Positions 47,929 to 61,344 of a stretch of DNA of 64,000 bases are shown here, piece after piece; position 1 is the stretch's first letter, and the number at the start of each line of letters is the position of its first letter. A program made the translations under genes and the position numbers. The notes under the pieces were generated by a model. It worked only from the letters and a program-made list of their open reading frames with translations, did not search any database and had not been told where the DNA came from. This stretch comes from Maribacter thermophilus (GTDB taxonomy: Bacteria > Bacteroidota > Bacteroidia > Flavobacteriales > Flavobacteriaceae), in the NCBI RefSeq assembly GCF_001020565.1, contig NZ_LDAS01000001.1:2752520-2816519 (forward strand), read 5' to 3'.

Positions 47929-48750
47929 TTATAACTCTCTTACCCAAATATTTCGATAACTTACACGACTATCGTCTCTATGATCTTGTAGACGCAGCGG
48001 TCCTTTACCATGCGCAGGGTTCTTGGGCCATCCTATATAAGGGGTGGTACCTTTTATCTCTACATGATCCTGAACCAGAACACCATTATGTATCACCGTT
48101 ATGGTTCCCGACTTTATCTTTTCTCCTTGATCATTAAATTCAGGGGCATGGTATATAATATCGTAGGTATTCCATTCACCTGTTGGTACCGATGCCATGG
48201 CCAAAGGCACATGCTGCTTATAAATAGAAGCTACTTGCCCATTTACATAGGTAGGATTATCATTTTGATCCAACACCTGAACCTCGTATATTCCATTTAA
48301 AAAGACACCACTATTGGCCCTATGCTGTCCTTCCTCTTGAACCGGCAATGGTGACTTCCACTCTATATGTAATTGAATATCGCCAAAATTCTGTTTGGTC
48401 TGAATATCGCCGGTTTTATCCTTTACCGTCATACTACCATCATCGTTCAAATGCCATTTGGCCGCTGTACTATCTATGCTAGAAATCCATTGATCCAAAT
48501 TGGAGCCATCGAACAATACTATGGCATCGCTAGGCACTCCGTTTTGCGAAGTAGGATGAACTATAGGCACCTTTGGCTCATAAAACTCGGTTTCTTCAGG
48601 TTTTGTAGGTTCTGTGCCATTATACTCTTCATGCACAATGACCTTACTACCTACTTCTTTTTTTTCTTCCTTGATTTCCTCTTTTACCTTTTCTTGACAA
48701 GAGGCAAGTAATAATGCTATCAATGAGATAGCCATGTAATTATTTTTCAT
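47929..48750 (-). CDS. DUF1080 (3-keto-disaccharide hydrolase family) lipoprotein A
   Basis: 273 residues: lipobox LASC (Cys18), a Lys/Glu-rich linker (about 20-65), then a jelly-roll DUF1080/PF06439 domain (about 75-273; DAIVLFDGSNLDQWISS; HRANSGVFLNG; PAHGKGPLRLQDH). Family members act on 3-keto-glycosides or bind carbohydrate. It is the last of a three-gene operon with a second DUF1080 and a TIM-barrel gene. The acidic residues after the lipid Cys suggest surface or outer-membrane location, which is inference. Confidence 0.9.
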   Translation of the reverse strand: MKNNYMAISLIALLLASCQEKVKEEIKEEKKEVGSKVIVHEEYNGTEPTKPEETEFYEPKVPIVHPTSQNGVPSDAIVLFDGSNLDQWISSIDSTAAKWHLNDDGSMTVKDKTGDIQTKQNFGDIQLHIEWKSPLPVQEEGQHRANSGVFLNGIYEVQVLDQNDNPTYVNGQVASIYKQHVPLAMASVPTGEWNTYDIIYHAPEFNDQGEKIKSGTITVIHNGVLVQDHVEIKGTTPYIGWPKNPAHGKGPLRLQDHRDDSRVSYRNIWVREL

Positions 48751-48779
48751 GTTCGGTTGGCTTGGTTCAATACAGATGT

Positions 48780-49535
48780 CTACAGTTCTTTTACTTTTAT
48801 ATTCTTAAAGGCAACTTCATTACCATGGTCTTGCAAGGCGAATTTTCCTGTAGTGTATTTAGCAAAATGTTCCCAATCGGCAAATTTCGATTTTGAAACC
48901 ATTTCTCCCCATTCAGGATCGTTCACAGAAAATTTAACTATTTCAACTCCGTTCAATACTACGTTGCCCTCATTTGTTTTATGATTTACGCTAAAGACCA
49001 TCGTATTCCATTCTCCAACAGGCTTTGTAACATCTTTTGATGGCGACACCATATCGTACAGGGCGCCCGCCTGGTGGCTGGTTCCATTCTTTCCATCTGG
49101 ATGTTTATCGTTGTCCAACACCTGAATTTCGGGTCCTGTTAAATAAGGTTGAGACAAATCGGGAGATTCTTTAACGCCCCACATGACACCACTGTTACCT
49201 GCTTCTGAAATGCGCCAATCCAACGAAAGCACAAAATCTGTATATTCAGTATCTGAAACCAGATTAAATTGCTCTCCATCTTTTCGCTCCTTTGGCGGAT
49301 AAAAAACCATGGCGCCATCCTCTATCTTCCAGTTTTCAGAAACACCCTCTTTAAGATACTCATGCCAACCATTAAAAGATTTGCCATCAAAAAGCATGGT
49401 CCATTCATCTTCGGCGGACGGCATTTTTTGTTCAGAAACCGTTTCTGGCGCTTTCTCGGCGCCCGCCTCTTTTTGTTTTTCTTTACAACCAATTACCAAG
49501 AGGGCTAGCATGGCTGCCGTTACTACGTTTTTCAT
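48780..49535 (-). CDS. DUF1080 (3-keto-disaccharide hydrolase family) lipoprotein B
   Basis: 251 residues, lipobox VIGC (Cys17), short linker, then a DUF1080 domain (about 45-251; WTMLFDGKSFNGWHEY; GNSGVMWGVKE; KFALQDHGNEVAFKNIKV). It differs clearly from the neighbour A, so the two may split tasks, for example different glycosides. It lies 15 bp after the TIM-barrel gene and 29 bp before A. Confidence 0.9.
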   Translation of the reverse strand: MKNVVTAAMLALLVIGCKEKQKEAGAEKAPETVSEQKMPSAEDEWTMLFDGKSFNGWHEYLKEGVSENWKIEDGAMVFYPPKERKDGEQFNLVSDTEYTDFVLSLDWRISEAGNSGVMWGVKESPDLSQPYLTGPEIQVLDNDKHPDGKNGTSHQAGALYDMVSPSKDVTKPVGEWNTMVFSVNHKTNEGNVVLNGVEIVKFSVNDPEWGEMVSKSKFADWEHFAKYTTGKFALQDHGNEVAFKNIKVKEL

Positions 49536-49550
49536 GTATCTGTGATTTGA

Positions 49551-50603
49551 TTAAATTCCCAACATTTTCTTAAGCATCTCTTTGTCTATTTCCGCACCGG
49601 CAAAATCATCAAAGGTCTTTTCGGTAGCCTCTATGATGTGATCTTTAATAAAGACAGCTCCTTCCCTAGCACCTTGTTCCGGGCTTTTTATACAACATTC
49701 CCATTCCATTACCGCCCAAACATCACAACCATATTGGGTTAATTTGGAAAAGATGGTTTTAAAATCTATTTGCCCATCCCCCAAAGAACGGTATCGGCCG
49801 GCACGGTTGCCCCAATCGTTGTATCCTCCAAAAGCGCCCTTTTTTCCCGTAGGGTTGAATTCGGAATCCTTGACATGGAAAGACTTTATAAACTCGTGGT
49901 AGAAATCTATATACTCTATATAATCTAATTGTTGCAGAACAAAATGACTTGGATCATAGAGTATATTTACTCTTTTATGGTTATTTGTAGCCTCTAAAAA
50001 GCGTTCAAAAGTATCACCATCGTGCAAATCCTCTCCTGGGTGAATTTCATAACAAACATCAACACCTTCCTTATCAAAGTGGTTTAATATCGGCATCCAT
50101 CTTTTGGCAAGTTCCTCAAAGCCCATCTCCACCAATCCGGCAGGTCTTTGAGGCCATGGGTGCATGGTATGCCATAACAATGAACCAGAAAAAGTAGCAT
50201 GTGACGACAGTCCAAGTCTTCTACTTGCCGTTGCTGCCTTCTTGACGGTTTCTACCGCCCATTCTGTTCTTGCCTTAGGGTTGTTGTGAACACTTTTTGG
50301 AGCAAAGGAATCGAACATTAAATCATATGCTGGGTGTACCGCTACCAATTGCCCTTGCAAATGCGTGGACAATTCGGTTATCTCAAGCCCATAAGAGTTG
50401 ATCTTACCTTTTAGCTCATCGCAATATACTTGGCTCTCGGCTGCCTTGTCCAAATCGATCAAAAAACTTTCCCATGTAGGAATTTGAATTCCTTTATACC
50501 CTAAATCCGATGCCCATTTACATAATCCGTCCAAGCTATTGAATGGTGGTTTACTATCAACAAATTGCGCTAAAAATACTCCCGGTCCCTTAATTGTTTT
50601 CAT
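49551..50603 (-). CDS. Cytosolic sugar isomerase/epimerase (AP-endonuclease-2-like TIM barrel)
   Basis: 350 residues without signal peptide, TIM barrel of the xylose-isomerase-like/AP_endonuc_2 family; likely metal ligands in CYEIHPGED, ILYDPSHF, KSFHVKDSEF and AVMEWECC. It heads the operon with two DUF1080 genes and is divergent from GMC oxidoreductase 1. A role in rearranging keto-sugars is inferred from context and family. Confidence 0.88.
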   Translation of the reverse strand: MKTIKGPGVFLAQFVDSKPPFNSLDGLCKWASDLGYKGIQIPTWESFLIDLDKAAESQVYCDELKGKINSYGLEITELSTHLQGQLVAVHPAYDLMFDSFAPKSVHNNPKARTEWAVETVKKAATASRRLGLSSHATFSGSLLWHTMHPWPQRPAGLVEMGFEELAKRWMPILNHFDKEGVDVCYEIHPGEDLHDGDTFERFLEATNNHKRVNILYDPSHFVLQQLDYIEYIDFYHEFIKSFHVKDSEFNPTGKKGAFGGYNDWGNRAGRYRSLGDGQIDFKTIFSKLTQYGCDVWAVMEWECCIKSPEQGAREGAVFIKDHIIEATEKTFDDFAGAEIDKEMLKKMLGI

Positions 50604-50640
50604 GCTTAAATTACTATCTATTATTATATGTTGTTGTTAA

Positions 50641-50733
50641 TCTGCCAATTATAAATATGTGAATAAACACTATATTTAGAGAAATATTTACGTATTTCTT
50701 TATTTGTCTGCCGACAATTTATAAATATAGGAA
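50641..50733. promoter_or_regulatory. Imperfect direct repeats and palindromes between the divergent TIM-barrel and GMC genes
   Basis: TCTGCC followed by AATT(T)ATAAATAT and then GTGAA/AGGAA occurs at 50641-50662 and again at 50707-50732, 66 bp apart. Between them lies an inverted repeat AGAAATA-N6-TATTTCT (50680-50699), and TTGTC-N4-GACAA overlaps the second copy (50704-50717). These look like regulator sites controlling the divergent pair; the regulator is not in the window. Confidence 0.4.
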
Positions 50734-50763
50734 ATACCATCAGAAAAAGATAAAATTTTAAGG

Positions 50764-52467
50764 ATGAATCAGAATGAAACATACGATGCCATTGTAGTGG
50801 GTACAGGAATTAGTGGAGGCTGGGCGGCCAAAGAACTTACCGAAAACGGACTAAAGACCCTCGTATTGGAACGTGGACCTATGGTTACCCACATCAAAGA
50901 TTACCCCACTATGAACGATGACCCTTGGGATTACCCTAATAAAGGAGAACTATCTAAAGAAGATAAAAAGAAATACCATGTACAAAGCCGCGTTATATGG
51001 GCGCCAAAAGATGACAACAAGCATTTTTTTGTTAACGACCTAGAGCATCCCTATGTGGAGACCAAGCGTTTTGATTGGATCCGCGGTTACCAAGTCGGTG
51101 GACGATCCCTTACATGGGGCCGTCAAAGTTACCGTTGGAGCGATATTGATTTTGAAGCGAACAAAAAAGAATCCATAGGTGTAGATTGGCCCGTTAGGTA
51201 CAAAGATATTTCGCCCTGGTACGACAAAGTAGAGGAATATATCGGTGTTAGTGGCGAAAACCTTGGCCTTAAACAACTACCAGACGGCAAGTACCAACCT
51301 GCAATGAAACTTAATTGTGTAGAGGAAGATTTTAAAAAAATTACCGCCGAAAAATTTGATGATGGCCGATTGGTTACTATTGGCAGAACGGCCCATATTA
51401 CAGATCCAAACGCAAATATAGAAGGTCGGGGAACCTGTCAAAACCGCGACCGATGTTCTAGAGGTTGCCCTTTCGGAGGATATTTTAGCAGTAACTCATC
51501 TACGCTACCCGCAGCGGAACGCACCGGAAACATGACCTTAAGACCTAACTCTATTGTTTATGAAGTTATTTATGACGACACAACAAAAAAAGCTACAGGA
51601 GTAAAGATAATAGACGCAGAAACACATGAAAAACTTGAGTTTAAGGCAAAAGTGATATTTCTATGTGCATCTGCCATGGCCTCGGTCGGTATTCTATTAC
51701 AATCAAAATCAGAACGTTTTCCAAACGGCCTCGGCAATGATTCCGATGCCTTGGGAAGAGGCATTATGGACCATCATTATAAATTAGGGGCCACGGCAAA
51801 AGTAGATGGCTATTTAGAAAAATACTATAAGGGCCGAAGAGCCAATGGGTTCTATATTCCTAGATTTGTAAACCTCGACGAGAAGACAAAAAGAGAAGAA
51901 TACCTTAGGGGCTTTGGCTACCAAGGTACGGCAAGTCGCCAAGATTGGTCCGAATCGGTGGCAGAACTTGGTTATGGCAAAGGCCTGAAAGAAGAAATTT
52001 TAAGACCCGGAAAATGGCAAATTGGCGTCACCGGTTTTGGAGAGTTCTTACCGTATGATGATAACAGGGTTACTTTGAGCAAGACCGAAAAAGACAAATG
52101 GGGTCTTCCCCAGTTAGATTTTGACGTAGAGTTCAAAGAGAACGAATACAACATGCGAAAAGACATTAAAAAAGAAATCGTAAAAATGTTCAAAGCAGCC
52201 GGGTTTAAGGATGTTCAACCATATGAAGAATCTAATGGACCAGGGTTGGGAATTCATGAAATGGGTGGTGCCCGCATGGGCCATAGCCCAAAAACCTCTA
52301 TCGTAAACAAACATAACCAAATACATACCGTACCCAATGTGTATGTTACCGATGGTGCCTTTATGTCTTCTTCTAGCTGTGTAAACCCATCATTGACCTA
52401 TATGGCGTTTACAGCCAGAGCTGCAAACCATGCCGCAAATGAGTTAAAAGCAGGCAAGTTCTCTTAA
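50764..52467 (+). CDS. GMC-family oxidoreductase 1 (FAD-dependent sugar dehydrogenase-like)
   Basis: 567 residues. FAD-binding GTGISG at 13-18; a Cys cluster at C225, C231 and C235 (TCQNRDRCSRGCPFGG), as in FAD-dependent glucose/gluconate dehydrogenases where such Cys bind a 3Fe-4S cluster; catalytic-region HEMGGARMG and SSSCVNPSLTYM near the end. It is a close paralogue of the enzyme at 57150. It has no signal peptide, and no subunit 3 gene follows. In this family the catalytic subunit is exported by riding on a Tat-signal small subunit, so it may use that of the second module. Substrate likely a sugar or glycoside, oxidised at C3 or C1. Confidence 0.9.
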   Translation: MNQNETYDAIVVGTGISGGWAAKELTENGLKTLVLERGPMVTHIKDYPTMNDDPWDYPNKGELSKEDKKKYHVQSRVIWAPKDDNKHFFVNDLEHPYVETKRFDWIRGYQVGGRSLTWGRQSYRWSDIDFEANKKESIGVDWPVRYKDISPWYDKVEEYIGVSGENLGLKQLPDGKYQPAMKLNCVEEDFKKITAEKFDDGRLVTIGRTAHITDPNANIEGRGTCQNRDRCSRGCPFGGYFSSNSSTLPAAERTGNMTLRPNSIVYEVIYDDTTKKATGVKIIDAETHEKLEFKAKVIFLCASAMASVGILLQSKSERFPNGLGNDSDALGRGIMDHHYKLGATAKVDGYLEKYYKGRRANGFYIPRFVNLDEKTKREEYLRGFGYQGTASRQDWSESVAELGYGKGLKEEILRPGKWQIGVTGFGEFLPYDDNRVTLSKTEKDKWGLPQLDFDVEFKENEYNMRKDIKKEIVKMFKAAGFKDVQPYEESNGPGLGIHEMGGARMGHSPKTSIVNKHNQIHTVPNVYVTDGAFMSSSSCVNPSLTYMAFTARAANHAANELKAGKFS

Positions 52468-52476
52468 CAAGAGAAC
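52458..52476 (+). terminator. Hairpin over the GMC 1 stop codon
   Basis: GTTCTCTT-AAC-AAGAGAAC, perfect 8-base arms with the TAA stop at the loop. No T-run follows, so it may only stabilise the mRNA 3' end. Confidence 0.35.
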
Positions 52477-52580
52477 GATAAAACGTTATTAGATTAAAAA
52501 ATATCGATTTAATTATAATGGAAGTTTTGAATTTTCTTTTTTTTGAAAGTAAATTACACGCGTTGTAAACACTAACTTTT

Positions 52581-53039
52581 ATGGAAAATACTTCGGCAAG
52601 AAACATGTGGGGAGATTATTTGGACAAACATCTGGAAGATGCATTCCACGAAGCCCCCAAGACCATGCATTTTTATGATAACGAACAAGATGCCAACAAT
52701 TGTGCCGATTTAACGAAGAAAGGTATTAAAGGGGCCTTTTCCAGTTCTTTATTGGGCATACAGCACAGAAAAGAGAAATTGCCCAAAATAGGAGACTTTA
52801 TAGTAATTACAAATTGGGAGGGAGAAGCACAATGTATCATTCAATTAACATCGGTAACATTACGCCCTTACTTTAATATTGACGAGTTATATGCCGAAAA
52901 GGAAGGTGAAGGGGACAAAAGTCTTGCCTATTGGAAAAAAGCCCACTGGGCCTACTTTACTAGAGAACTGGCTTCTTTTGGGCGTGAACCAAGGGACAGT
53001 ATGATCGTCGTTTGCCAAGAATTTAAAAAGGTATTTTAA
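52581..53039 (+). CDS. ASCH-domain protein
   Basis: 152 residues with an ASCH domain over most of the length (FSSSLLGIQHRKEKLPKIGDFIVITNWEGEAQCIIQL; YWKKAHWAYFTRELASFG). ASCH proteins are small RNA-binding-like beta-barrel proteins; some are nucleoside amidohydrolases. It is separated from the GMC gene by 113 bp and ends at a bidirectional terminator, so it is probably not part of the sugar pathway. Confidence 0.88.
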   Translation: MENTSARNMWGDYLDKHLEDAFHEAPKTMHFYDNEQDANNCADLTKKGIKGAFSSSLLGIQHRKEKLPKIGDFIVITNWEGEAQCIIQLTSVTLRPYFNIDELYAEKEGEGDKSLAYWKKAHWAYFTRELASFGREPRDSMIVVCQEFKKVF

Positions 53040-53043
53040 AATA

Positions 53044-53074
53044 AAAAAAGGGGCGTTTAAAACGCCCCTTTTTT
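53044..53074. terminator. Bidirectional terminator between ASCH and Gfo/Idh/MocA genes
   Basis: GGGGCGTTT / AAACGCCCC stem flanked by A-run and T-run; serves both convergent genes. Confidence 0.93.
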
Positions 53075-53093
53075 ATTCTTGTGTTGTGTGACC

Positions 53094-54233
53094 TTAGTCT
53101 TCCAAGGAGACCCATGTATTACCGTTCTTATTGGATTCTACGGTAGATACAATAAAGTCCATACCCCTTACACCATCAACAATGGTCGGAAACTCGCCAT
53201 CATTGTATTTTTCTCCCCTTATAGCACGTGCCGCGCCTAAGTAAATATTGGCCATGGAATCAAAAATACCTTCTGGGTGTCCTGCAGGTAACTTAGTACC
53301 GTCCAATGACAGTTCAGAGTTATAGGCATGGCCCGGTTTGTATATTTGTACCGGCTCGGTATCACTTAATTTATATAGAAAATTCGGATTTTCTTGCTCC
53401 CATCTAAAAGCCCCTTTTTCACCATAAATAGCAATTGCAAGGCCATTTTCCTCCCCTGTTGCTACTTGGCTACCACGAATAACCCCTTTGACGTGATCTC
53501 CCATTCTAATAAGCACGGTACCATCCACATCCATTTGGTTGTCATCATATAGGTAATTAAAATCGCAAAGAACAGATTTTACTTTTAATCCAGTGGTGTA
53601 TTCTACCATATTAAAGGCATGCACCCCTATATCTCCCATACAAGAACTAATACCTGCTTTTTTGGGATCTAGACGCCATACAGAACTGCGTTTATCCTTA
53701 TCATGGATTATTTCGTTTATCCAACCTTGATAGTAGCGCGCATCTACTTTATGGATCTTACCGATTTCACCTGCCTTTATCATTTCTCTCATCTGCCGTA
53801 CCATAGGATACCCGGTATAAGTATGCGTCAGAGCAAAAACGGCCCCTGATTTTTGTTGTGCCTCCAACAATATCTTTGCCTCTTCCAAAGTCGTGGTCAT
53901 AGGTTTTTCACATATCACGTGAAACCCATTGTCCAACAGTTTTTTGGCCATTGGAAAATGTAAAAAATTGGGAGTAAGAATAGAACATACTTGTATACGT
54001 TCGTCTTCCGGTAATTTTAGTTCTTCTTCTACAAGGGTATCAAAATCCTTATATATTCTATCTAAAGGAACATCTATCTCTTTGGCAAAAGCCAAATTCT
54101 TTTCATAATCAGGATTAAATACCGCTCCCGTTATCTGGTAATTATCGTTGATTTGTGAAGCTACCCTGTGCAAAACCCCGATAAGGGAATCTCCGCCCCC
54201 TCCTAATATTCCTAATCTAATCTTCTTTGGCAT
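53094..54233 (-). CDS. Gfo/Idh/MocA-family oxidoreductase
   Basis: 379 residues. N-terminal Rossmann fold GILGGGGDS (8-16), CEKPMTTT with catalytic-region Glu-Lys-Pro at 109-111, then the alpha/beta domain with GDIGVHAFNMVEY near 215-227. No signal peptide: cytosolic. Such enzymes use NAD(P) to oxidise or reduce sugars, including 3-keto-sugars. It is the last gene of a four-gene minus operon with a permease, a DinB protein and a TIM-barrel lipoprotein. Confidence 0.93.
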   Translation of the reverse strand: MPKKIRLGILGGGGDSLIGVLHRVASQINDNYQITGAVFNPDYEKNLAFAKEIDVPLDRIYKDFDTLVEEELKLPEDERIQVCSILTPNFLHFPMAKKLLDNGFHVICEKPMTTTLEEAKILLEAQQKSGAVFALTHTYTGYPMVRQMREMIKAGEIGKIHKVDARYYQGWINEIIHDKDKRSSVWRLDPKKAGISSCMGDIGVHAFNMVEYTTGLKVKSVLCDFNYLYDDNQMDVDGTVLIRMGDHVKGVIRGSQVATGEENGLAIAIYGEKGAFRWEQENPNFLYKLSDTEPVQIYKPGHAYNSELSLDGTKLPAGHPEGIFDSMANIYLGAARAIRGEKYNDGEFPTIVDGVRGMDFIVSTVESNKNGNTWVSLED

Positions 54234-54282
54234 GTTGTAATCTTATTTTTAAGTTTTATGAAGTTTTCAATTTATAAAAATT

Positions 54283-55512
54283 CTAAGACTTATAGTCTAT
54301 TTTTTCTTTTTTGAACAATAGCAAAAAGAAAATCAAAACTATAAATGCGAAACCGGCCGGATACAACCAAATAACGTCCCAAACGTGTGTACCATCACTC
54401 AACAAATAGCTATTTGAAATGTTACCGGCAATCCAAAACCCAATTAACATCCCCACGCCATAGGTCGCCAAGGTAATAAGCCCCTGCGCCGAACTTTTAA
54501 ATTTCTCCCCCGCCTTACTATCTGTGTATATCTGACCGGAAACAAAGAAAAAATCATAACAGATGCCATGCAGGGCAATACCCAGCAACAACATAAAACT
54601 AAGCTCTCCGACATTACCGTAGGCAAACAAAATATACCGGACTACCCAGGCCAGCATAGCGACCATTATGGTTTTTTTAAATCCGAATTTGGTAAAAAAG
54701 TAAGGCAGTAAAAGCATGAATAGAATTTCGGAAATCTGCCCTAACGTCATTTTTCCGGTCGGGTTCTGCATTCCTATCTCCACTAAGAAAGGGTTGGCAT
54801 TCTGGTAATAGAAGGCCAGCGGTATACATATTAATACCGATGAAATAAAGAACACAAGAAAATTCTTGTCCTTAAACAGTTTTAAGGCATCCAACCCCAA
54901 AATTTCCTGCAGGTTCAATTTCTCCGAACTTGTTGCCCTAGGAGGTGTTTTAGGCAATGTAAAGCTAAACACGCCCAATACCAAAGAAGCAATGGCCGTC
55001 ATTAAAAAGGTGTTCTTTAAAAGCCCGTTGGAGATACCGACATCCGAATCCCATTTAAACAAATAACTGATCAGCAAGCCCGCAATTATCCATCCCAAGG
55101 TACCAAAGACCCGTATAACAGAAAACTCTTTGGCCGGATTGTTCATTTGGTTAAATGAAACCGAATTCACCAATGCAAGGGTCGGCATATATAAAATCAT
55201 ATAACCCAACACATAAGGGTAAAAAACACTAAAAGATTCTGTGCCGTACATAAGGTATAATAACACGCCACCCAACAGGTGTAAAACACCCAAAATTCTT
55301 TCCGCATTAAAATACCTATCGGCTATTAGACCTATAATAAAAGGAGCTATAATAGCTCCCCATGATTGTGTAGAAAATGCCAAGGCGATTTCACCGTCCG
55401 ATGCCTGTATATTATTACCTAAAAAGGTACCGAGGGTTACGAACCAACCTCCCCATATAAAAAATTCCAAGAACATCATAACACATAGTTGTGCTCTTAC
55501 ACCAATACTCAT
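54283..55512 (-). CDS. MFS nucleoside permease-like transporter
   Basis: 409 residues, twelve predicted helices, with similarity to the nucleoside:H+ symporter (NupG/XapB) group (FFIWGGWFVTLGTFLG; GLIADRYFNAERIL). In this context it may import a sugar, glycoside or nucleoside-like product rather than a nucleoside. It lies 49 bp before the Gfo gene in the operon. Confidence 0.9.
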   Translation of the reverse strand: MSIGVRAQLCVMMFLEFFIWGGWFVTLGTFLGNNIQASDGEIALAFSTQSWGAIIAPFIIGLIADRYFNAERILGVLHLLGGVLLYLMYGTESFSVFYPYVLGYMILYMPTLALVNSVSFNQMNNPAKEFSVIRVFGTLGWIIAGLLISYLFKWDSDVGISNGLLKNTFLMTAIASLVLGVFSFTLPKTPPRATSSEKLNLQEILGLDALKLFKDKNFLVFFISSVLICIPLAFYYQNANPFLVEIGMQNPTGKMTLGQISEILFMLLLPYFFTKFGFKKTIMVAMLAWVVRYILFAYGNVGELSFMLLLGIALHGICYDFFFVSGQIYTDSKAGEKFKSSAQGLITLATYGVGMLIGFWIAGNISNSYLLSDGTHVWDVIWLYPAGFAFIVLIFFLLLFKKEKIDYKS

Positions 55513-55519
55513 AATCTAT

Positions 55520-55963
55520 TTATCTTTTGTAAAAAATATAATCCATAACAATGGGGTCAATCCCATTATCCCTAAAATCAGTTAAAATTTGCCCTCTATG
55601 GGCGGTAGAGTGATTTATAATATGAAAGAGCATATCCTGTAAGGTATTGGTAAACAACCTACCTTTAGAATTCTCATAGTCGATACGTTTGTCAAATTCA
55701 TCTGCATTTGTAGTTATTTCAAATGAATTTCTTTGGTTTTCATAATGTATATCGGACCAATCTTTAATGTCATGTTTTTGCCATACATCATACTCCGAGG
55801 GTTTTCCCAAAATTCTTGAGTTCCATATATGATGTGCGTTAAGAATGTGACTAAAAAGCTCCTGACTTTTTTCAGGAGCTTTACCTAGTTTAACACACTC
55901 GTCTATAATTTTCTTGTTACAATAAAAATTGTAGTCGAACAATTCATTAAAGAATACTTTCAT
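55520..55963 (-). CDS. DinB-family protein
   Basis: 147 residues, four-helix bundle with metal-binding His (FSHILNAHHIWNSRI; MLFHIINHSTAHRGQIL), the DinB/YfiT pattern. It may be a thiol transferase or hydrolase; no function is known here. Its spacing (7 bp before the permease, 17 bp after the TIM-barrel gene) ties it to the operon although it is an unexpected partner. Confidence 0.87.
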   Translation of the reverse strand: MKVFFNELFDYNFYCNKKIIDECVKLGKAPEKSQELFSHILNAHHIWNSRILGKPSEYDVWQKHDIKDWSDIHYENQRNSFEITTNADEFDKRIDYENSKGRLFTNTLQDMLFHIINHSTAHRGQILTDFRDNGIDPIVMDYIFYKR

Positions 55964-55980
55964 AACAAATCAAAGCTTTA

Positions 55981-56973
55981 CTAAACAACTGCTTTGGCCG
56001 CTTTTAATAATAAATCACGTGTAGCCTTTATACCTTCTTCTTCGCTAAGTTCTTTTCCTTCATATTCTACACCAATAAAACCGGTATACCCCGCATCTTT
56101 CACCATTTGCAACATCTTAACATAATCTATCTCCACCTCATTGCCTTCCGCATCAAAAACGTTGGATTTGGCACTTACAGCCTTTGCATACGGCATCAGC
56201 TCTTTAACACCTTTGTATTTGTCGTACATTACCTCGCAGTCCCAACTATCGGGTTTTCTGGTGATACAGAAATTACCAAAATCGGGCAATGTACCACAGT
56301 TATCCATATCTACCATGGCCATTACCTCGGCATGTAATGCCCCATTAGAAGAAAGACCTCCATGATTTTCAACCAAAATATTAATGTTCTTTTCTTTGGC
56401 ATAGGTAGCTAGTTTTGTGAGTCCATCAACAGAATTCTTCTTCCATTCCTCGGGATCGTTACTACCATTTAGGTTTACACGTATGGCATGGCAACCCATA
56501 GCGGCTGCGGCATCTACCCATTTTTTATGCTTTTCTACCGTTTCGTTTCTTTCCGCCTCATCACTGACAGCCAAATTTCCCTGACCATCGATCATGATCA
56601 AAACATTTTTCATTCCGTGTTTTTTAGCTTCGGCATTTGATTTTTCTACAAATGCGGCCATAGCTTCATCAGAATAATTGGCATCTGATAACTCTGGGTT
56701 GTATAACTGGCTAACATATTCTAACCCCGTAAACCCCCATTTTTTGGCTTTTTCAGCGAAGGTATATGGATCTACGCCTTCTTCCCTGATCATTCTATGC
56801 ATAGACCATTGGGCCAATGACAATTCAAAAAACGGTTCGGCTATTTCTGTAGCTTCTACCGTTTCTGCTTCATTTTTATTTTCCTTTTTTGCCTCTTTAC
56901 ATGCATAGGCACCCAAAAATGACACACCTACACCGGCAACGGCCGTCTTTCTAATAAAATTTCTTCTTTTCAT
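55981..56973 (-). CDS. Exported TIM-barrel sugar isomerase/epimerase lipoprotein
   Basis: 330 residues. MKRRNFIRK is a Tat-like double Arg start, and GAYAC (Cys25) a lipobox; then a Glu-rich linker (about 30-45) and an AP-endonuclease-2/xylose-isomerase-like TIM barrel (LVENHGGLSSNG; FIGVEYEG). This is a periplasmic or outer-membrane-attached version of the enzyme class, divergent from GMC oxidoreductase 2. Possible role: epimerise or cleave 3-keto-glycosides outside the cytosol. Confidence 0.88.
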   Translation of the reverse strand: MKRRNFIRKTAVAGVGVSFLGAYACKEAKKENKNEAETVEATEIAEPFFELSLAQWSMHRMIREEGVDPYTFAEKAKKWGFTGLEYVSQLYNPELSDANYSDEAMAAFVEKSNAEAKKHGMKNVLIMIDGQGNLAVSDEAERNETVEKHKKWVDAAAAMGCHAIRVNLNGSNDPEEWKKNSVDGLTKLATYAKEKNINILVENHGGLSSNGALHAEVMAMVDMDNCGTLPDFGNFCITRKPDSWDCEVMYDKYKGVKELMPYAKAVSAKSNVFDAEGNEVEIDYVKMLQMVKDAGYTGFIGVEYEGKELSEEEGIKATRDLLLKAAKAVV

Positions 56974-57149
56974 TTAATCGCTGGTTATTCTATTTGTTAA
57001 CTAATTGATTTAATTTTATTTATCCCCCTTTTCTAATGAATCTTAGATATAACAAACACCCCTTATGATGCCATATTCGCAAGAAGAATAAGGAATAAAT
57101 GTATAGAATTAATTTAATATTTAATAAATTTAGGGAATAAACAGTTTCT

Positions 57150-58862
57150 ATGAGCAAATTTTATTATAACGAAGAACAGGAATCGTATGATGCGATTGTT
57201 GTCGGAACAGGTATTAGCGGAGGATGGGCCGCTAAGGAATTATGTGAAAACGGATTAAAGACCCTTGTTCTCGAAAGGGGAAGGATGGTGAAGCATATCG
57301 ATGATTATGTCACGGCCAACAAAGACCCTTGGGATTTTCCTAATGGTGGGGTTGCCACTAAAGAAATCATAGAGAAACAGCCCAAACAACACAGAACGGG
57401 CTACACCACCAGCCAAGCCAGCCATATGTGGTTCGTAAACGATTTGGAACATCCTTATAATGAAATAAGACGTTTCGATTGGATGCGCGGTTACCACGTC
57501 GGGGGACGATCGTTACAATGGGGTCGCCAAAGTTATCGTTGGAGCGATATCGACTTCACCGCAAACCAAAGAGAGGGTATTGCCGTAGACTGGCCGGTTA
57601 GATATAAAGATATTGCCCCATGGTACTCCAAGGTAGAAAATTTTATCGGAGTTAGTGGAGAAGCACTTAATCTTCCTCAATTACCGGACAGTGATTTTCT
57701 TCCACCGATGGATCTGAACTGTGTAGAAGACCACTTTAAGAACAAGGTAATGGAATCTTTTGATGACCGGGCCGTTACCGTGGGCCGAGTAGCCCATATT
57801 ACAGGAGATAAAACTTTTGACGGAAGAACAAAATGCCAATTTAGAAACAGATGTATTAGAGGTTGTCCTTTTGGAGGTTATTTCAGTAGTCTTTCCTCTA
57901 CACTTCCGGCTGCAGAAGCTACCGGAAACATGACCCTTAGACCAGATTCTATAGTACACGAAGTAATATACGATCCCGATACCAAAAAGGCAACAGGTGT
58001 AAAAGTCATAGATAGGGTAACCAAAGAAAAATACGAGTTCAAGGCCAAGGTAATTTTCCTTTGTGCTTCTGCGATTGCCTCTACATCTATCTTAATGCAA
58101 TCAAGATCCGACCGTTTCCCTAATGGTATGGGCAACGATTCCGATCAATTGGGCCGTAACATCATGGATCACCACTTAGGGGTAGGTGCCAGCGGTATAT
58201 TTGAAGGCTATGACGACAAATATTACAAAGGTAGAAGACCTAATGGCGTCTATATTCCAAGGTTTAGAAACCTTGGTGGTTCTTCGAACAGAAAAGACTA
58301 TAAACGTGGATTCGGTTATCAAGGAGGTGCCAGTAGAGGCAACTGGGAAGAAACTGTTGCTGAACTTGCCTATGGAAAAGACTTGAAAGAAAGTATTTTG
58401 AAGCCCGGAGGATGGCGAATGGGTATTGGCGGATTTGGCGAGGTACTCCCATATCAGGACAACAGATTCACCCTTGATTATGACAAATTAGATCAATGGG
58501 GATTACCAACCGTTACTTTTGATGCAGACCTTCAGGAAAACGAATTCAACATGCGTAAAGACATGCAGGAATCTGCTGTTGAAATGTTGGAAAAAGCCGG
58601 ATTCAAAGATGTAAAAGGACATGATGGACCAACCGGTCTTGGTCTTGGAATACATGAAATGGGAACTGCAAGAATGGGTAGGGACAGAAAAACATCTGTA
58701 CTAAACGGACATAATCAATTACACGATGTACCTAATGTATATGTTACCGATGGATCGTTTATGACCTCTTCTAGCTGCGTAAACCCATCTTTGACCTATA
58801 TGGCCTTTACGGCTAGAGCGGCAAACCACGCAGTTCAAGAACTTAAAAAAGGAAATATATAA
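57150..58862 (+). CDS. GMC-family oxidoreductase 2 (FAD-dependent sugar dehydrogenase-like)
   Basis: 570 residues, close paralogue of GMC 1: GTGISG at 19-24, Cys cluster C229, C235, C239 (KCQFRNRCIRGCPFGG), and conserved C-terminal HEMGTARMG and SSSCVNPSLTYM. No signal peptide. Its stop shares a base with the start of the subunit 3 gene (TAATG), so catalytic and small subunits are made together. By similarity to glucoside 3-dehydrogenases and gluconate 2-dehydrogenases it should oxidise a sugar in the periplasm, passing electrons on. Confidence 0.92.
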   Translation: MSKFYYNEEQESYDAIVVGTGISGGWAAKELCENGLKTLVLERGRMVKHIDDYVTANKDPWDFPNGGVATKEIIEKQPKQHRTGYTTSQASHMWFVNDLEHPYNEIRRFDWMRGYHVGGRSLQWGRQSYRWSDIDFTANQREGIAVDWPVRYKDIAPWYSKVENFIGVSGEALNLPQLPDSDFLPPMDLNCVEDHFKNKVMESFDDRAVTVGRVAHITGDKTFDGRTKCQFRNRCIRGCPFGGYFSSLSSTLPAAEATGNMTLRPDSIVHEVIYDPDTKKATGVKVIDRVTKEKYEFKAKVIFLCASAIASTSILMQSRSDRFPNGMGNDSDQLGRNIMDHHLGVGASGIFEGYDDKYYKGRRPNGVYIPRFRNLGGSSNRKDYKRGFGYQGGASRGNWEETVAELAYGKDLKESILKPGGWRMGIGGFGEVLPYQDNRFTLDYDKLDQWGLPTVTFDADLQENEFNMRKDMQESAVEMLEKAGFKDVKGHDGPTGLGLGIHEMGTARMGRDRKTSVLNGHNQLHDVPNVYVTDGSFMTSSSCVNPSLTYMAFTARAANHAVQELKKGNI

Positions 58863-59509
58863 TGGATAGAAGAAAAGCACTCAAAAATATGGGACTTGCC
58901 ATGGGATATACCGTGGCGACTCCTACCCTTATAAGTATCATGCAAAGTTGTAAGGGGGAAACCGTTGCCCAATGGACGCCTGAATTTTTTACGCAGGCCG
59001 AAGGCAGCGTTATTACCAAACTGGTGGATATCATCATCCCCAAGACCGATACACTTTCAGCATCAGAGGTACAGGTAGATCTTTTTATCGACAAATTTTC
59101 CCAAGATGTTATGGAAAAAGAAAATCAGGATTTCTTTAAAATGACCATGGGTAAATTTATAGACAAGGCGTTAAAAGATTCTGGAAAAGAAAATGCACAG
59201 GATCTTACTCCCGAAGACCTAGAACCTGTCTTGGCAAGTGCCCTTAAACATTCTAAAGAGGACCAAGCCAAGATGTCAGAATCCATAACCACCTATAATG
59301 AAGCTGTAGCAGAAGGAAAATCCGCCACATTGGATGAAGGAACTTCTCTTTTTGCTTTTGCAAATAACCTGCGTGGACTAACAATTTGGGGCTATAAAAC
59401 CTCTGAATATGTTGGCGAAGAGGTTTTGGCCTATCTTCCCGTTCCTGGGGAATATATAGGTTGTGGGGATGCCCAAGAACTTTCTCAAGGAAAAGCTTGG
59501 TCTTTGTAA
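58862..59509 (+). CDS. Gluconate 2-dehydrogenase subunit 3-family small subunit
   Basis: 215 residues. N-terminus MDRRKALKNMGLAMGYTVA has the double Arg and hydrophobic core of a Tat signal; the rest is the helical gluconate-2-DH subunit 3 domain (FTQAEGSVITKLVDIIIPKTDT). It should carry the signal-less GMC catalytic subunit through the Tat system and help hold it. The start overlaps the GMC 2 stop by one base. Confidence 0.92.
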   Translation: MDRRKALKNMGLAMGYTVATPTLISIMQSCKGETVAQWTPEFFTQAEGSVITKLVDIIIPKTDTLSASEVQVDLFIDKFSQDVMEKENQDFFKMTMGKFIDKALKDSGKENAQDLTPEDLEPVLASALKHSKEDQAKMSESITTYNEAVAEGKSATLDEGTSLFAFANNLRGLTIWGYKTSEYVGEEVLAYLPVPGEYIGCGDAQELSQGKAWSL

Positions 59510-59534
59510 ATAACAATAATAACACATGTACAAT

Positions 59535-59579
59535 AAAGAGTTAAAGGACGGTAATCACCTCCTTTAACTCTTTTCTTTT
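59535..59579 (+). terminator. Intrinsic terminator of the GMC 2/subunit 3 operon
   Basis: Arms AAAGAGTTAAAGGA and TCCTTTAACTCTTT pair over 14 bases across an 11-nt loop, with a T-rich tail (TTTTCTTTT). Confidence 0.92.
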
Positions 59580-59621
59580 GCATAAGTAAATACAACCAAT
59601 AATACCTTATTCAACAACCAT

Positions 59622-60539
59622 ATGAAAAGAAGAAGTTTTATTCAAAAATCGGCACTTACAGGAGGAGCCTTATCATTCGGAGGGGCATTGAGCTTTGCCC
59701 ATGAAACCAGAAAAAAATCGGAACCCCATAAATTCAATTTAAAATATGCCCCTCATTTGGGCATGTTCAAAGAATTGGCCGGAAATGACCCCATTGATCA
59801 GATCAATTTTATGGCCGATCAAGGTTTTACCGCCTTTGAAGATAATGGAATGATGAAAAGAGATGTTGCCATGCAGAACAAAATTGGCGAAACCCTCGTA
59901 AAAAGGGGAATGACCATGGGCGTTTTTGTAATTGACAAGGGAGGTAACATGGCGAATACCTTGGCCGCCGGAAAAAAAGAAAACGTTGATATATTCTTAG
60001 ATGGATGCAAACGTGCCGTTGAAGTCGCCAAAAGGGTCAATGCAAAATGGATGACCGTTGTGCCCGGCGCATATGAAAGAAGTTTGCCTATTGGCATACA
60101 AGATGGTAATGTTATCGAGACCTTAAAAAGAGGTGCAGAAATCTTGGAACCCCATGGCCTTACCATGGTATTGGAACCCCTTTCCGATTCTCCAGATCTG
60201 TACTTACAAAATTCAGATCAGACATATATGATATGCAAGGGAGTCGATAGCCCCGCATGTAAAATCTTGTTCGATATTTACCATATGCAAAAGACCGAAG
60301 GCCACCTGATCCATAACATGGATCTTACTTGGGACGAAATTGGATACATCCAGATAGGTGACAACCCTGGGCGTAAAGAGCCAACAACAGGAGAAATCAA
60401 CTATTTAAACGTACTCAAATGGATTTATGATAAAGGATTTGATGGAGTTCTGGGTATGGAGCACGGTAATTCCAAAACAGGTAAAGAAGGGGAACAAGCC
60501 GTTATAGATGCCTACATGAAGGTAGATAGCTTCCTATAA
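59622..60539 (+). CDS. Exported hydroxypyruvate-isomerase-like TIM-barrel protein
   Basis: 305 residues with a Tat-like start (MKRRSFIQKSALTGGALSFGG, cleavage after about 30) and an AP-endonuclease-2 TIM barrel similar to hydroxypyruvate isomerases (GLTMVLEPLSD; ILFDIYHMQKTEGH; IQIGDNPGRKEP; GVLGMEHGNSK). It follows the subunit 3 gene after a terminator, so it may have its own promoter. It is the third TIM-barrel enzyme of the island and is probably periplasmic. Confidence 0.9.
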   Translation: MKRRSFIQKSALTGGALSFGGALSFAHETRKKSEPHKFNLKYAPHLGMFKELAGNDPIDQINFMADQGFTAFEDNGMMKRDVAMQNKIGETLVKRGMTMGVFVIDKGGNMANTLAAGKKENVDIFLDGCKRAVEVAKRVNAKWMTVVPGAYERSLPIGIQDGNVIETLKRGAEILEPHGLTMVLEPLSDSPDLYLQNSDQTYMICKGVDSPACKILFDIYHMQKTEGHLIHNMDLTWDEIGYIQIGDNPGRKEPTTGEINYLNVLKWIYDKGFDGVLGMEHGNSKTGKEGEQAVIDAYMKVDSFL

Positions 60540-60987: not shown

Positions 60988-61344
60988 TTAATCACAACCT
61001 TCTCTGTCCACTTCTTCTTTTGCTTCCTTAATGGCCTGATCATATTCGGCCCTATTGGTACCAGGTACACAATCGGCCATACCTCTTAAAGAGTCAAGAT
61101 AATCTTTGGCGGCCTCCTTATATCTATTACAATTTTCATCGGTAGGGTTATCGGAATACGCCTGAGCTGCAGCCTCCCATTCTGTCAACTCATCTAAAAT
61201 ATTATCTGTCCACACGGCACCCCCAAAACACCCTCCTAATGGGTTTATGGCGTCTTCTTTGTCACATCCCATTAGCATCAATGCCGATGCGCCACAAACC
61301 ACTAACGCTTTTTTTACTCGATTTTTTCTTAACGTTTTCATCAT
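60988..61344 (-). CDS. Small lipoprotein of unknown function
   Basis: 118 residues; basic start, hydrophobic core and lipobox MGC (Cys27), then a mostly helical acidic domain with several Cys (GGCFGG, ENCNRYKEA, ADCVPGT, REGCD), likely disulfide-bonded. No family recognised. Two consecutive ATGs at the start. A tiny membrane peptide gene lies 63 bp upstream on the same strand. Confidence 0.7.
   Translation of the reverse strand: MMKTLRKNRVKKALVVCGASALMLMGCDKEDAINPLGGCFGGAVWTDNILDELTEWEAAAQAYSDNPTDENCNRYKEAAKDYLDSLRGMADCVPGTNRAEYDQAIKEAKEEVDREGCD

Follow-up and report, generated by a model that had tools for sequence, protein, structure and literature searches.

An island of twelve genes at positions 47929–60539 of a 64,000-nucleotide stretch of Maribacter thermophilus DNA (contig NZ_LDAS01000001.1; the whole stretch is called the window below) probably encodes a pathway that cleaves glycosides without hydrolysis and is divided between two compartments, a reading to which we give a probability of about three in four. 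Genes were called from open reading frames (ORFs) together with Pfam and NCBIfam scans of the island proteins, and all those that an earlier note on this DNA had listed were recovered in place; most minus-strand proteins were used as queries without their start methionine. From left to right the island encodes two DUF1080 proteins and a hydratase homologue (DUFa, DUFb and HYD; minus strand), a GMC dehydrogenase and an ASCH-domain protein (GMC1 and ASCH; plus strand), a Gfo/Idh/MocA protein, a major facilitator superfamily (MFS) permease, a DinB-like protein and a TIM barrel (GFO, MFS, DinB-like and TIM2; minus strand), and a second GMC dehydrogenase, a subunit 3 and a further TIM barrel (GMC2, SUB3 and TIM3; plus strand).

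In the proposed pathway, GMC2, and possibly GMC1 with a second specificity, would be carried out and held by SUB3, a protein of the twin-arginine translocation (Tat) type, and would oxidize C3 of a glycoside in the periplasm. A lipoprotein lyase, either a DUF1080 protein or, for some substrates, probably TIM2, would then remove the aglycone by β-elimination to leave 2-hydroxy-3-keto-glucal, which some DUF1080 proteins may also hydrate in the periplasm. The permease would import the unsaturated keto-sugar or the 3-keto-sugar. In the cytosol, HYD would add water to give 3-keto-glucose, which GFO would convert to glucose at the expense of NAD(P)H.

As far as homology can tell, the logic of the island is better set by HYD (49551–50603, minus strand; PF01261) than by the name of the DUF1080 family. 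HYD aligned over 349 of its 350 residues with PDB entry 8ro4 (E = 1.7e-161, 540.7 bits), which its depositors titled 2-hydroxy-3-keto-glucal hydratase and which we take to be AtHYD of Agrobacterium tumefaciens. The earlier note had made this protein an isomerase that rearranges the product; the match rejects that assignment, and HYD is instead a homologue of the hydratase, with hydratase activity as its predicted function. The name refers to the addition of water to the unsaturated sugar that remains after β-elimination of the aglycone from a 3-keto-glucoside. Because the match to 8ro4 is full-length, the route is read as oxidation, β-elimination, hydration and reduction. Thus the cleavage of keto-glycosides by something other than a glycoside hydrolase, as proposed earlier, is retained, but elimination followed by hydration would describe it better than hydrolysis. 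Residues E186, H188, D217, H220, H243, K245, E300 and E302 were invariant in all 157 relatives and form a set of the TIM-barrel metal-site type, to which their roles would correspond; 150 positions were conserved at ≥97% among the 157 sequences.

The oxidation step falls to the GMC proteins. GMC2 (57150–58862, plus strand), an FAD dehydrogenase catalytic subunit, aligned nearly end to end in phmmer searches with the large subunit of fructose dehydrogenase (E = 5.8e-40) and with FAD glucose dehydrogenase (E = 3.6e-36). It is 67% identical to GMC1 (50764–52467, plus strand; PF00732/PF05199), and both contain the Cys cluster described in the earlier note, in the form C-x5-C-x3-C. The cluster and the catalytic His/Asn correspond to C229, C235, C239, H502 and N545 in GMC2 and have equivalents in GMC1, where H498, N541, C225, C231 and C235 are kept in 23 of 23 GMC1 genes; the three cysteines are compatible with the 3Fe-4S cluster that enzymes of this family carry. 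SUB3 (58862–59509, plus strand; Gluconate_2-dh3, PF13618, E = 5.6e-27), with an Arg-Arg N-terminus, follows GMC2 directly, and no subunit 3 adjoins GMC1, which may share SUB3. The gene set gives good support to the earlier scheme of glycoside oxidation followed by cleavage independent of glycoside hydrolases; the regioselectivity of GMC2 for C3 of glycosides is what we infer from its partner genes.

Cleavage is assigned in the first place to the DUF1080 proteins. Both exceeded the curated PF06439 cut-off of 26.8 bits, DUFa (47929–48750, minus strand) with 135.7 bits (E = 2.6e-39) and DUFb (48780–49535, minus strand) with 168.5 bits (E = 2.2e-49), and both have lipobox-like N-termini (LLASC in DUFa), in agreement with their earlier description as lipoproteins. 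In phmmer searches, DUFb matched the uncharacterized entries 4jqt (8.2e-44) and 3h3l (1.3e-37), and then 8rr2, 8tda, 9fbe and 8v31 (2e-33 to 5e-32). Of these four, 8rr2 and 9fbe are titled 3-keto-glycoside eliminase/hydratase, and 8tda and 8v31 3-keto-2-hydroxy-glucal hydratase; 8tda, 8rr2 and 9fbe are depositions of BT2157-type proteins. DUFb is thus a candidate periplasmic 3-keto-glycoside eliminase/hydratase. DUFa falls in an uncharacterized branch: its nearest structure both by sequence and by fold was the uncharacterized 4qhz (53–54% identity), and the sequence search otherwise returned only the marginal match 4hxc. Beyond about E = 3e-4, its fold search returned lectin- or jelly-roll-like domains of many proteins, including a neurotoxin binding domain, which we set aside as shared fold. 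In the Pfam scan no island protein reached a glycoside-hydrolase cut-off, the GH114 and GH97 models matching TIM2 below theirs, in line with the earlier remark that the island holds no classical glycoside hydrolase.

For the last step, GFO (53094–54233, minus strand; PF01408, PF22725 and PF02894) is a candidate cytosolic 3-keto-sugar reductase, the direction of its reaction being taken from the pathway. Its best NCBIfam model was levoglucosan dehydrogenase (94.1 bits, below the cut-off of 650), and it scored 39.4 of 750 bits with BT_2158_fam and 24.2 of 650 with BT_2159_fam. The permease (54283–55512, minus strand; Nuc_H_symport family, PF03825, E = 4.6e-113) probably imports a keto-sugar intermediate.

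Compartments were judged by a simple strict lipobox pattern and by the presence of RR in the first 15 residues. Among relatives of SUB3, RR was present in 131 of 132, and C30 was conserved at ≥97% of 113; among TIM3 relatives RR was present in 48 of 49. For TIM2, the lipobox pattern was found in 54 of 125 relatives and RR in 46 of 125, and Cys25 was kept in ≥90% of 42. HYD showed neither pattern in any of 160 sequences, in line with the lack of a signal peptide pattern in the window's protein, and GMC2 showed neither in any of 135. RR was found in none of 151 GFO relatives, and the ten that matched the lipobox pattern presumably did so by chance. These N-terminal patterns would place cleavage outside, hydration and reduction inside, and the permease between them. 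The periplasmic route of the earlier note therefore holds in part: the cleaving enzymes look exported, but HYD and GFO look cytosolic.

The earlier note had named in advance a lack of co-conservation in related genomes as the outcome that would count against the pathway; what we found was a recurrent gene order and strong co-occurrence. We sampled 199 genomes from the family (Flavobacteriaceae, as judged from named relatives) and took 80 loci around the hydratase from 80 of the 101 genomes with a strong hydratase match, mostly with long contigs. Besides HYD (80, by construction), these loci contained GFO in 79, TIM2 in 74, GMC2 in 72, SUB3 in 69, MFS in 59, DUFb in 56, DUFa in 48, yicC, gmk and nadD in 46 each, TIM3 in 35, DinB-like in 28 and ASCH in 26. 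By ORF extraction, the five-gene core of HYD, GFO, TIM2, GMC2 and SUB3 was complete in 63 of the 80; 59 of these 63 also had DUF1080 and 52 the permease. A second set of 80 named loci from GTDB genomes, the best 80 of at least 594 matches, contained GFO in 73, GMC2 in 58, SUB3 in 56, TIM2 and DUFb in 54 each, MFS in 45, DUFa in 33 and TIM3 in 20. The nearest hydratases in named records were mostly from Maribacter (93–95%), with one from Cellulophaga (93%), and both GMC genes cluster with Maribacter genes in the tree described below. One named locus, from Maribacter litopenaei, gave several adjacent BLAST pieces for many island genes, suggesting frameshifts or low sequence quality.

For co-occurrence across the 199 genomes, we chose cut-offs of E <1e-160 for HYD, ≤1e-170 for GMC, <1e-70 for TIM2 and ≤1e-20 for DUF1080 and compiled the sets by hand, which dropped weak matches in 1 of 102, 16 of 123, 1 of 102 and 11 of 132 genomes, respectively. 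HYD was present in 101 genomes and GMC in 107, with both in 97, HYD only in 4, GMC only in 10 and neither in 88 (odds ratio 213). HYD and TIM2 occurred together in 96 genomes and each alone in 5, with neither in 93. DUF1080 was present in 101 of 101 HYD genomes and in 20 of the 98 others. Xylose isomerase (TIGR02630), used as a control, gave 68 genomes with both, 33 with HYD only, 20 with the control only and 78 with neither (odds ratio 8). Because this association was far weaker, genomes rich in sugar genes account for only part of the co-occurrence; Fisher values nevertheless overstate independence, because the genomes are related. In a hand count over 247 genomes of the phylum, 49 had a HYD of ≥63% identity, 25 had only a relative at 31–35%, 6 had traces and 167 had nothing.

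HYD matches were also found in 345 plasmid records; of the 20 that were listed, we inspected three. On a Pseudoalteromonas plasmid, Gfo, HYD, MFS, DUF1080, GMC, subunit 3 and TIM-barrel genes form a compact block, with identities to the island proteins of 68% (HYD), 40% (GFO), 35% (DUFb) and 30% (GMC2). A Croceicoccus plasmid has a pair of TIM barrel and DUF6379 genes with GH3, Gfo, HYD, subunit 3, GMC and MFS genes, and a Rhizobium plasmid combines two TIM barrels (one of them HYD) and two Gfo genes with genes for an ABC transporter, with no GMC gene within the stretch seen. Taken as illustrations rather than as a count, these three loci suggest a core that oxidizes, hydrates and reduces, combined with an exchangeable lyase.

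TIM2 (55981–56973, minus strand; PF01261), with its exported-lipoprotein-like N-terminus, is a candidate for such a lyase. A profile search of the PDB gave 13 matches, headed by the uncharacterized 4ovx and followed mostly by C-glycoside deglycosidase chains; judged by entry codes and titles, eight were of the DgpC/DfgA/CGD/AgCar kind, and the others were Art22, two D-tagatose 3-epimerases and IolI. The AlphaFold model (predicted local distance difference test score 91.4) gave a similar order in Foldseek, with the epimerases 3cqj and 3vni at E-values close to that of DgpC, so that fold alone is not decisive. Alignment with hhalign gave 97.2% for the DUF6379-linked TIM barrel of Croceicoccus. 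E202, H204, D231, K269, E303 and E305 were invariant in 122 of 122 sequences, and H204 aligns with His143 of the C-glycoside deglycosidase PuCGE, the general acid-base proposed in PMC13273386. Ser267, likewise invariant in 122 of 122, stands at the place of PuCGE His263, a probable metal ligand. Pfam and NCBIfam scans of the island proteins found no DUF6379 β partner; for this reason, and because a His at the His263 position is lacking, we did not class TIM2 as a C-glycoside deglycosidase, and it is better described as a candidate uncharacterized lyase related to the α subunits of these enzymes. A bolder proposal, which we hold only tentatively, is that TIM2 would represent a new family of 3-keto-glycoside lyases, lipid-anchored in the periplasm, which dispense with the β subunit and have Ser for His in the metal site, and that the permease would be a dedicated importer of 2-hydroxy-3-keto-glucal. 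If this were true, flavobacteria would eliminate outside the cell and hydrate inside.

Other affiliations of TIM2 fared less well. Homology to the eliminase AtOGE was not supported: hhalign gave 2.3% with the Rhizobium gene preceding HYD, which holds the presumed AtOGE position and stood in for AtOGE itself, and 8BVK was not among the PDB matches listed for TIM2, the Foldseek top 50 included. A close relationship with HYD was not supported either (2.8%), and grouping with TIM3 was weak (51%). In five stretches around BT_2158-family matches, the ORFs of two of which were read, TIM2 had no match at E = 1e-4. Elsewhere in the 4.05-Mb genome, positions 2419021–2419935 of contig C1 hold a TIM2 paralogue (42% identical) whose reading frame contains one TAG and which may be a pseudogene.

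TIM3 (59622–60539, plus strand; PF01261), an Arg-Arg-signal TIM barrel, appears to be an accessory protein of the hydroxypyruvate-isomerase/epimerase type. It scored 107.7 bits with TIGR03234, below the cut-off of 353, and its PDB matches were 3ngf, 1k77 and D-tagatose 3-epimerases. It has an E-P pair in 48 of 48 sequences, where HYD, TIM2 and PuCGE have E-x-H.

Several observations weigh against the two-compartment pathway. All activities of the island proteins are predictions. The two top structural matches of DUFb are uncharacterized, and no more than 47 of 81 DUFa relatives and 56 of 115 DUFb relatives, about half, showed the lipobox pattern; both points lowered our confidence. For GFO, identity drops to about 40% in some loci, and the closest PDB entries, headed by 3v5n, are uncharacterized. 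In seven of the 80 named loci, HYD was alone among the 15 queried genes at E = 1e-6; these are six Saprospiraceae and one Chitinophagales among the more distant records, several on short contigs (L220, L221, L223, L225, L228, L232 and L233). The Pseudoalteromonas permease, like its subunit 3 and TIM barrel, had no BLAST match to that of the island at E = 1e-5, and the Croceicoccus locus includes a GH3 glycoside hydrolase. No electron acceptor was recognized within the island, and no CxxCH cytochrome c motif was found in the 12 island and three flanking proteins, which were the part of the genome searched, so that the acceptor needed by a LacABC-type enzyme must be encoded elsewhere. Genetic evidence is mixed: a Caulobacter DUF1080 gene had a clear lactose phenotype, but none of 10 Pedobacter DUF1080 genes did, which that report attributes to possible redundancy (PMC9007349), and deletions of BT2157 or BT2158 caused no growth defect on raffinose-family oligosaccharides (PMC11501099).

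These points leave room for a different division of labour, which we consider possible but doubtful. DUFb could both eliminate and hydrate outside the cell, making 3-keto-glucose the imported sugar; the DUF1080 proteins alone would then be the periplasmic eliminase/hydratases, HYD would salvage leaked 2-hydroxy-3-keto-glucal, and TIM2 would be an epimerase or keto-sugar isomerase. The titles of the solved DUF1080 structures, the presence of DUF1080 in every sampled hydratase genome and the Foldseek proximity of TIM2 to epimerases are all consistent with this arrangement. However, the strong conservation of HYD and its linkage to GFO in 79 of 80 loci would be odd for a salvage enzyme, and TIM2 has the E-x-H pair of HYD and PuCGE and not the E-P of TIM3.

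An ordinary gluconate or polyol dehydrogenase (GMC with subunit 3) beside inositol-like genes is a far less probable reading. PF13618 is named for gluconate 2-dehydrogenase, and the IolE and IolG models match HYD and GFO, as 1i60 (IolI) weakly matches TIM2; the scores, however, were far under the cut-offs (58.1 vs 290 bits for TIGR04379 with HYD and 54.5 vs 355 for TIGR04380 with GFO), which compares poorly with the 540.7 bits of the hydratase match, and we rejected HYD and GFO as IolE and IolG. We know of no place for DUF1080 linkage in inositol catabolism. A chance or merely operonic neighbourhood of unrelated sugar genes, to which the passenger genes inside the island and the variability of TIM3, DUFa and MFS (35, 48 and 59 of 80 loci) might point, is very improbable given the five-gene core, a co-occurrence far above that of the control sugar gene and the same gene classes standing together on a gammaproteobacterial plasmid.

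Within the pathway island as we read it, GMC1 appears to be a late arrival. GMC genes in the loci were labelled by best score. The label GMC1 fell on 16 family and 12 named loci; the gene is adjacent to HYD in 13 and 10 of them, respectively, and lies in the SUB3 position in the rest. ASCH was present in all 13 family loci with an HYD-adjacent GMC1 and in 13 further loci that lack GMC1; where neither was present, HYD mostly stood beside GFO. We built a tree of 74 GMC proteins chosen from 158, comprising all those not linked to SUB3 and about every third SUB3-linked one. The 23 HYD-adjacent genes, including the GMC1 of the window, formed a single clade (100/100) on a long stem (0.34), whose sister (96/90) was a set of SUB3-linked genes; three other GMC genes near a hydratase grouped with GMC3, a distant homologue in the same genome. 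GMC1 is read as a duplicate and GMC2 as the ancestral copy, and the distribution of GMC1 and ASCH in the family loci indicates that both were most likely inserted later. The two divergent modules of the earlier note can be kept in so far as each GMC gene faces a TIM-barrel gene, but what underlies them is one older island.

The remaining features add to this description. The ASCH-domain protein (52581–53039, plus strand; PF04266), a probable inserted passenger, and the DinB-like protein (55520–55963, minus strand; PF05163), possibly another, have no evident role in the island. The sequence TAAATATAGG occurs at 50722–50731, about 40 bases upstream of GMC1, and in 19 of the 23 HYD–GMC1 gaps of relatives; it is possibly a GMC1 promoter element. 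A motif common to both divergent gaps was rejected, because the core AATATAGG was found in none of 86 TIM2–GMC2 gaps on either strand. A second cluster in the same genome, at about 357500–366200 of contig C1 (4468–13214 of the extracted locus L150), groups GMC3 and a gene for subunit 3 with a TIM barrel and a Gfo/Idh gene of the Tat type. It adjoins genes for a LacI-type regulator, xylose isomerase and xylulokinase, with SusC/SusD-like genes close by, and may be a pentoside version of the island; sequence matches identify GMC3, its subunit 3 and the xylose isomerase, and the other functions were read from the translations. The left flank of the island has yicC-, gmk- and nadD-like genes, named from their sequences, and immediately to the right a putative lipoprotein of 118 amino acids is encoded at 60988–61344 (minus strand). 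Rfam gave nothing above gathering scores between 44000 and 64000.

The occurrence of the hydratase in 101 of 199 genomes ties an island present in about half of the sampled family to oxidative, non-hydrolytic breakage of glycosides, a process that searches for glycoside hydrolases would miss. The chemistry itself has already been published for Agrobacterium, Bacteroides and Caulobacter, and the literature matches listed included no paper on this island; the apparent two-compartment split and the uncharacterized enzyme TIM2 are new in detail. Two testable points follow, the function of TIM2 and the keto-sugar carried by the permease.

Comparison with known systems supports this placement. A. 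tumefaciens has a glycoside dehydrogenase, GlycDH, which we take to be of the GMC type. Its operon, as described in PMC10628242, combines the flavoenzyme GlycDH with a Gfo oxidoreductase, which reduces 3-keto-glucose to glucose, and with AtOGE (eliminase) and AtHYD, both isomerase-like, the latter proposed for hydration on preliminary evidence; the same source reports a glycoside dehydrogenase of Rhizobium GIN611 co-expressed with a TAT-pathway protein. Within what is described there, the island shares the flavoenzyme dehydrogenase, the Gfo enzyme, a hydratase probably of the same family and the order oxidation, elimination, hydration and reduction. It differs in that the eliminase of A. tumefaciens is the TIM barrel AtOGE, whereas the candidate cleaving enzymes here are the DUF1080 lipoproteins and TIM2. 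Unlike the Rhizobium locus, it has an MFS permease in place of ABC transporter genes.

LacB of the Caulobacter LacABC dehydrogenase is a c-type cytochrome. According to PMC9007349, LacABC acts with a DUF1080 partner in lactose users, Caulobacter and also Pedobacter and Indibacter, and the fate of 3-ketogalactose is there called unknown. The island resembles this system in pairing a periplasmic LacABC-type dehydrogenase with DUF1080; it has no LacB-type cytochrome partner but does include a hydratase together with a candidate reductase for the keto-sugar, and hydration and reduction by linked genes may explain what becomes of the 3-keto-sugar. With BT2156–BT2160 of B. thetaiotaomicron the island shares a DUF1080 protein (BT2157) and Gfo/Idh enzymes acting on 3-keto-glycosides, but there the NAD-dependent, Gfo-type BT2158 and BT2159 (NCBIfam names) oxidize first, and here GMC is the candidate for that step. 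With the C-glycoside deglycosidases (DgpB/C, DfgA/B and PuCGE) it shares TIM2, a distant relative that keeps the Glu-x-His pair and the Asp, but it has no DUF6379 protein, has Ser267 for PuCGE His263, and gives TIM2 an exported-lipoprotein-like N-terminus. The island varies a pathway that has been described only recently, and is itself well conserved.

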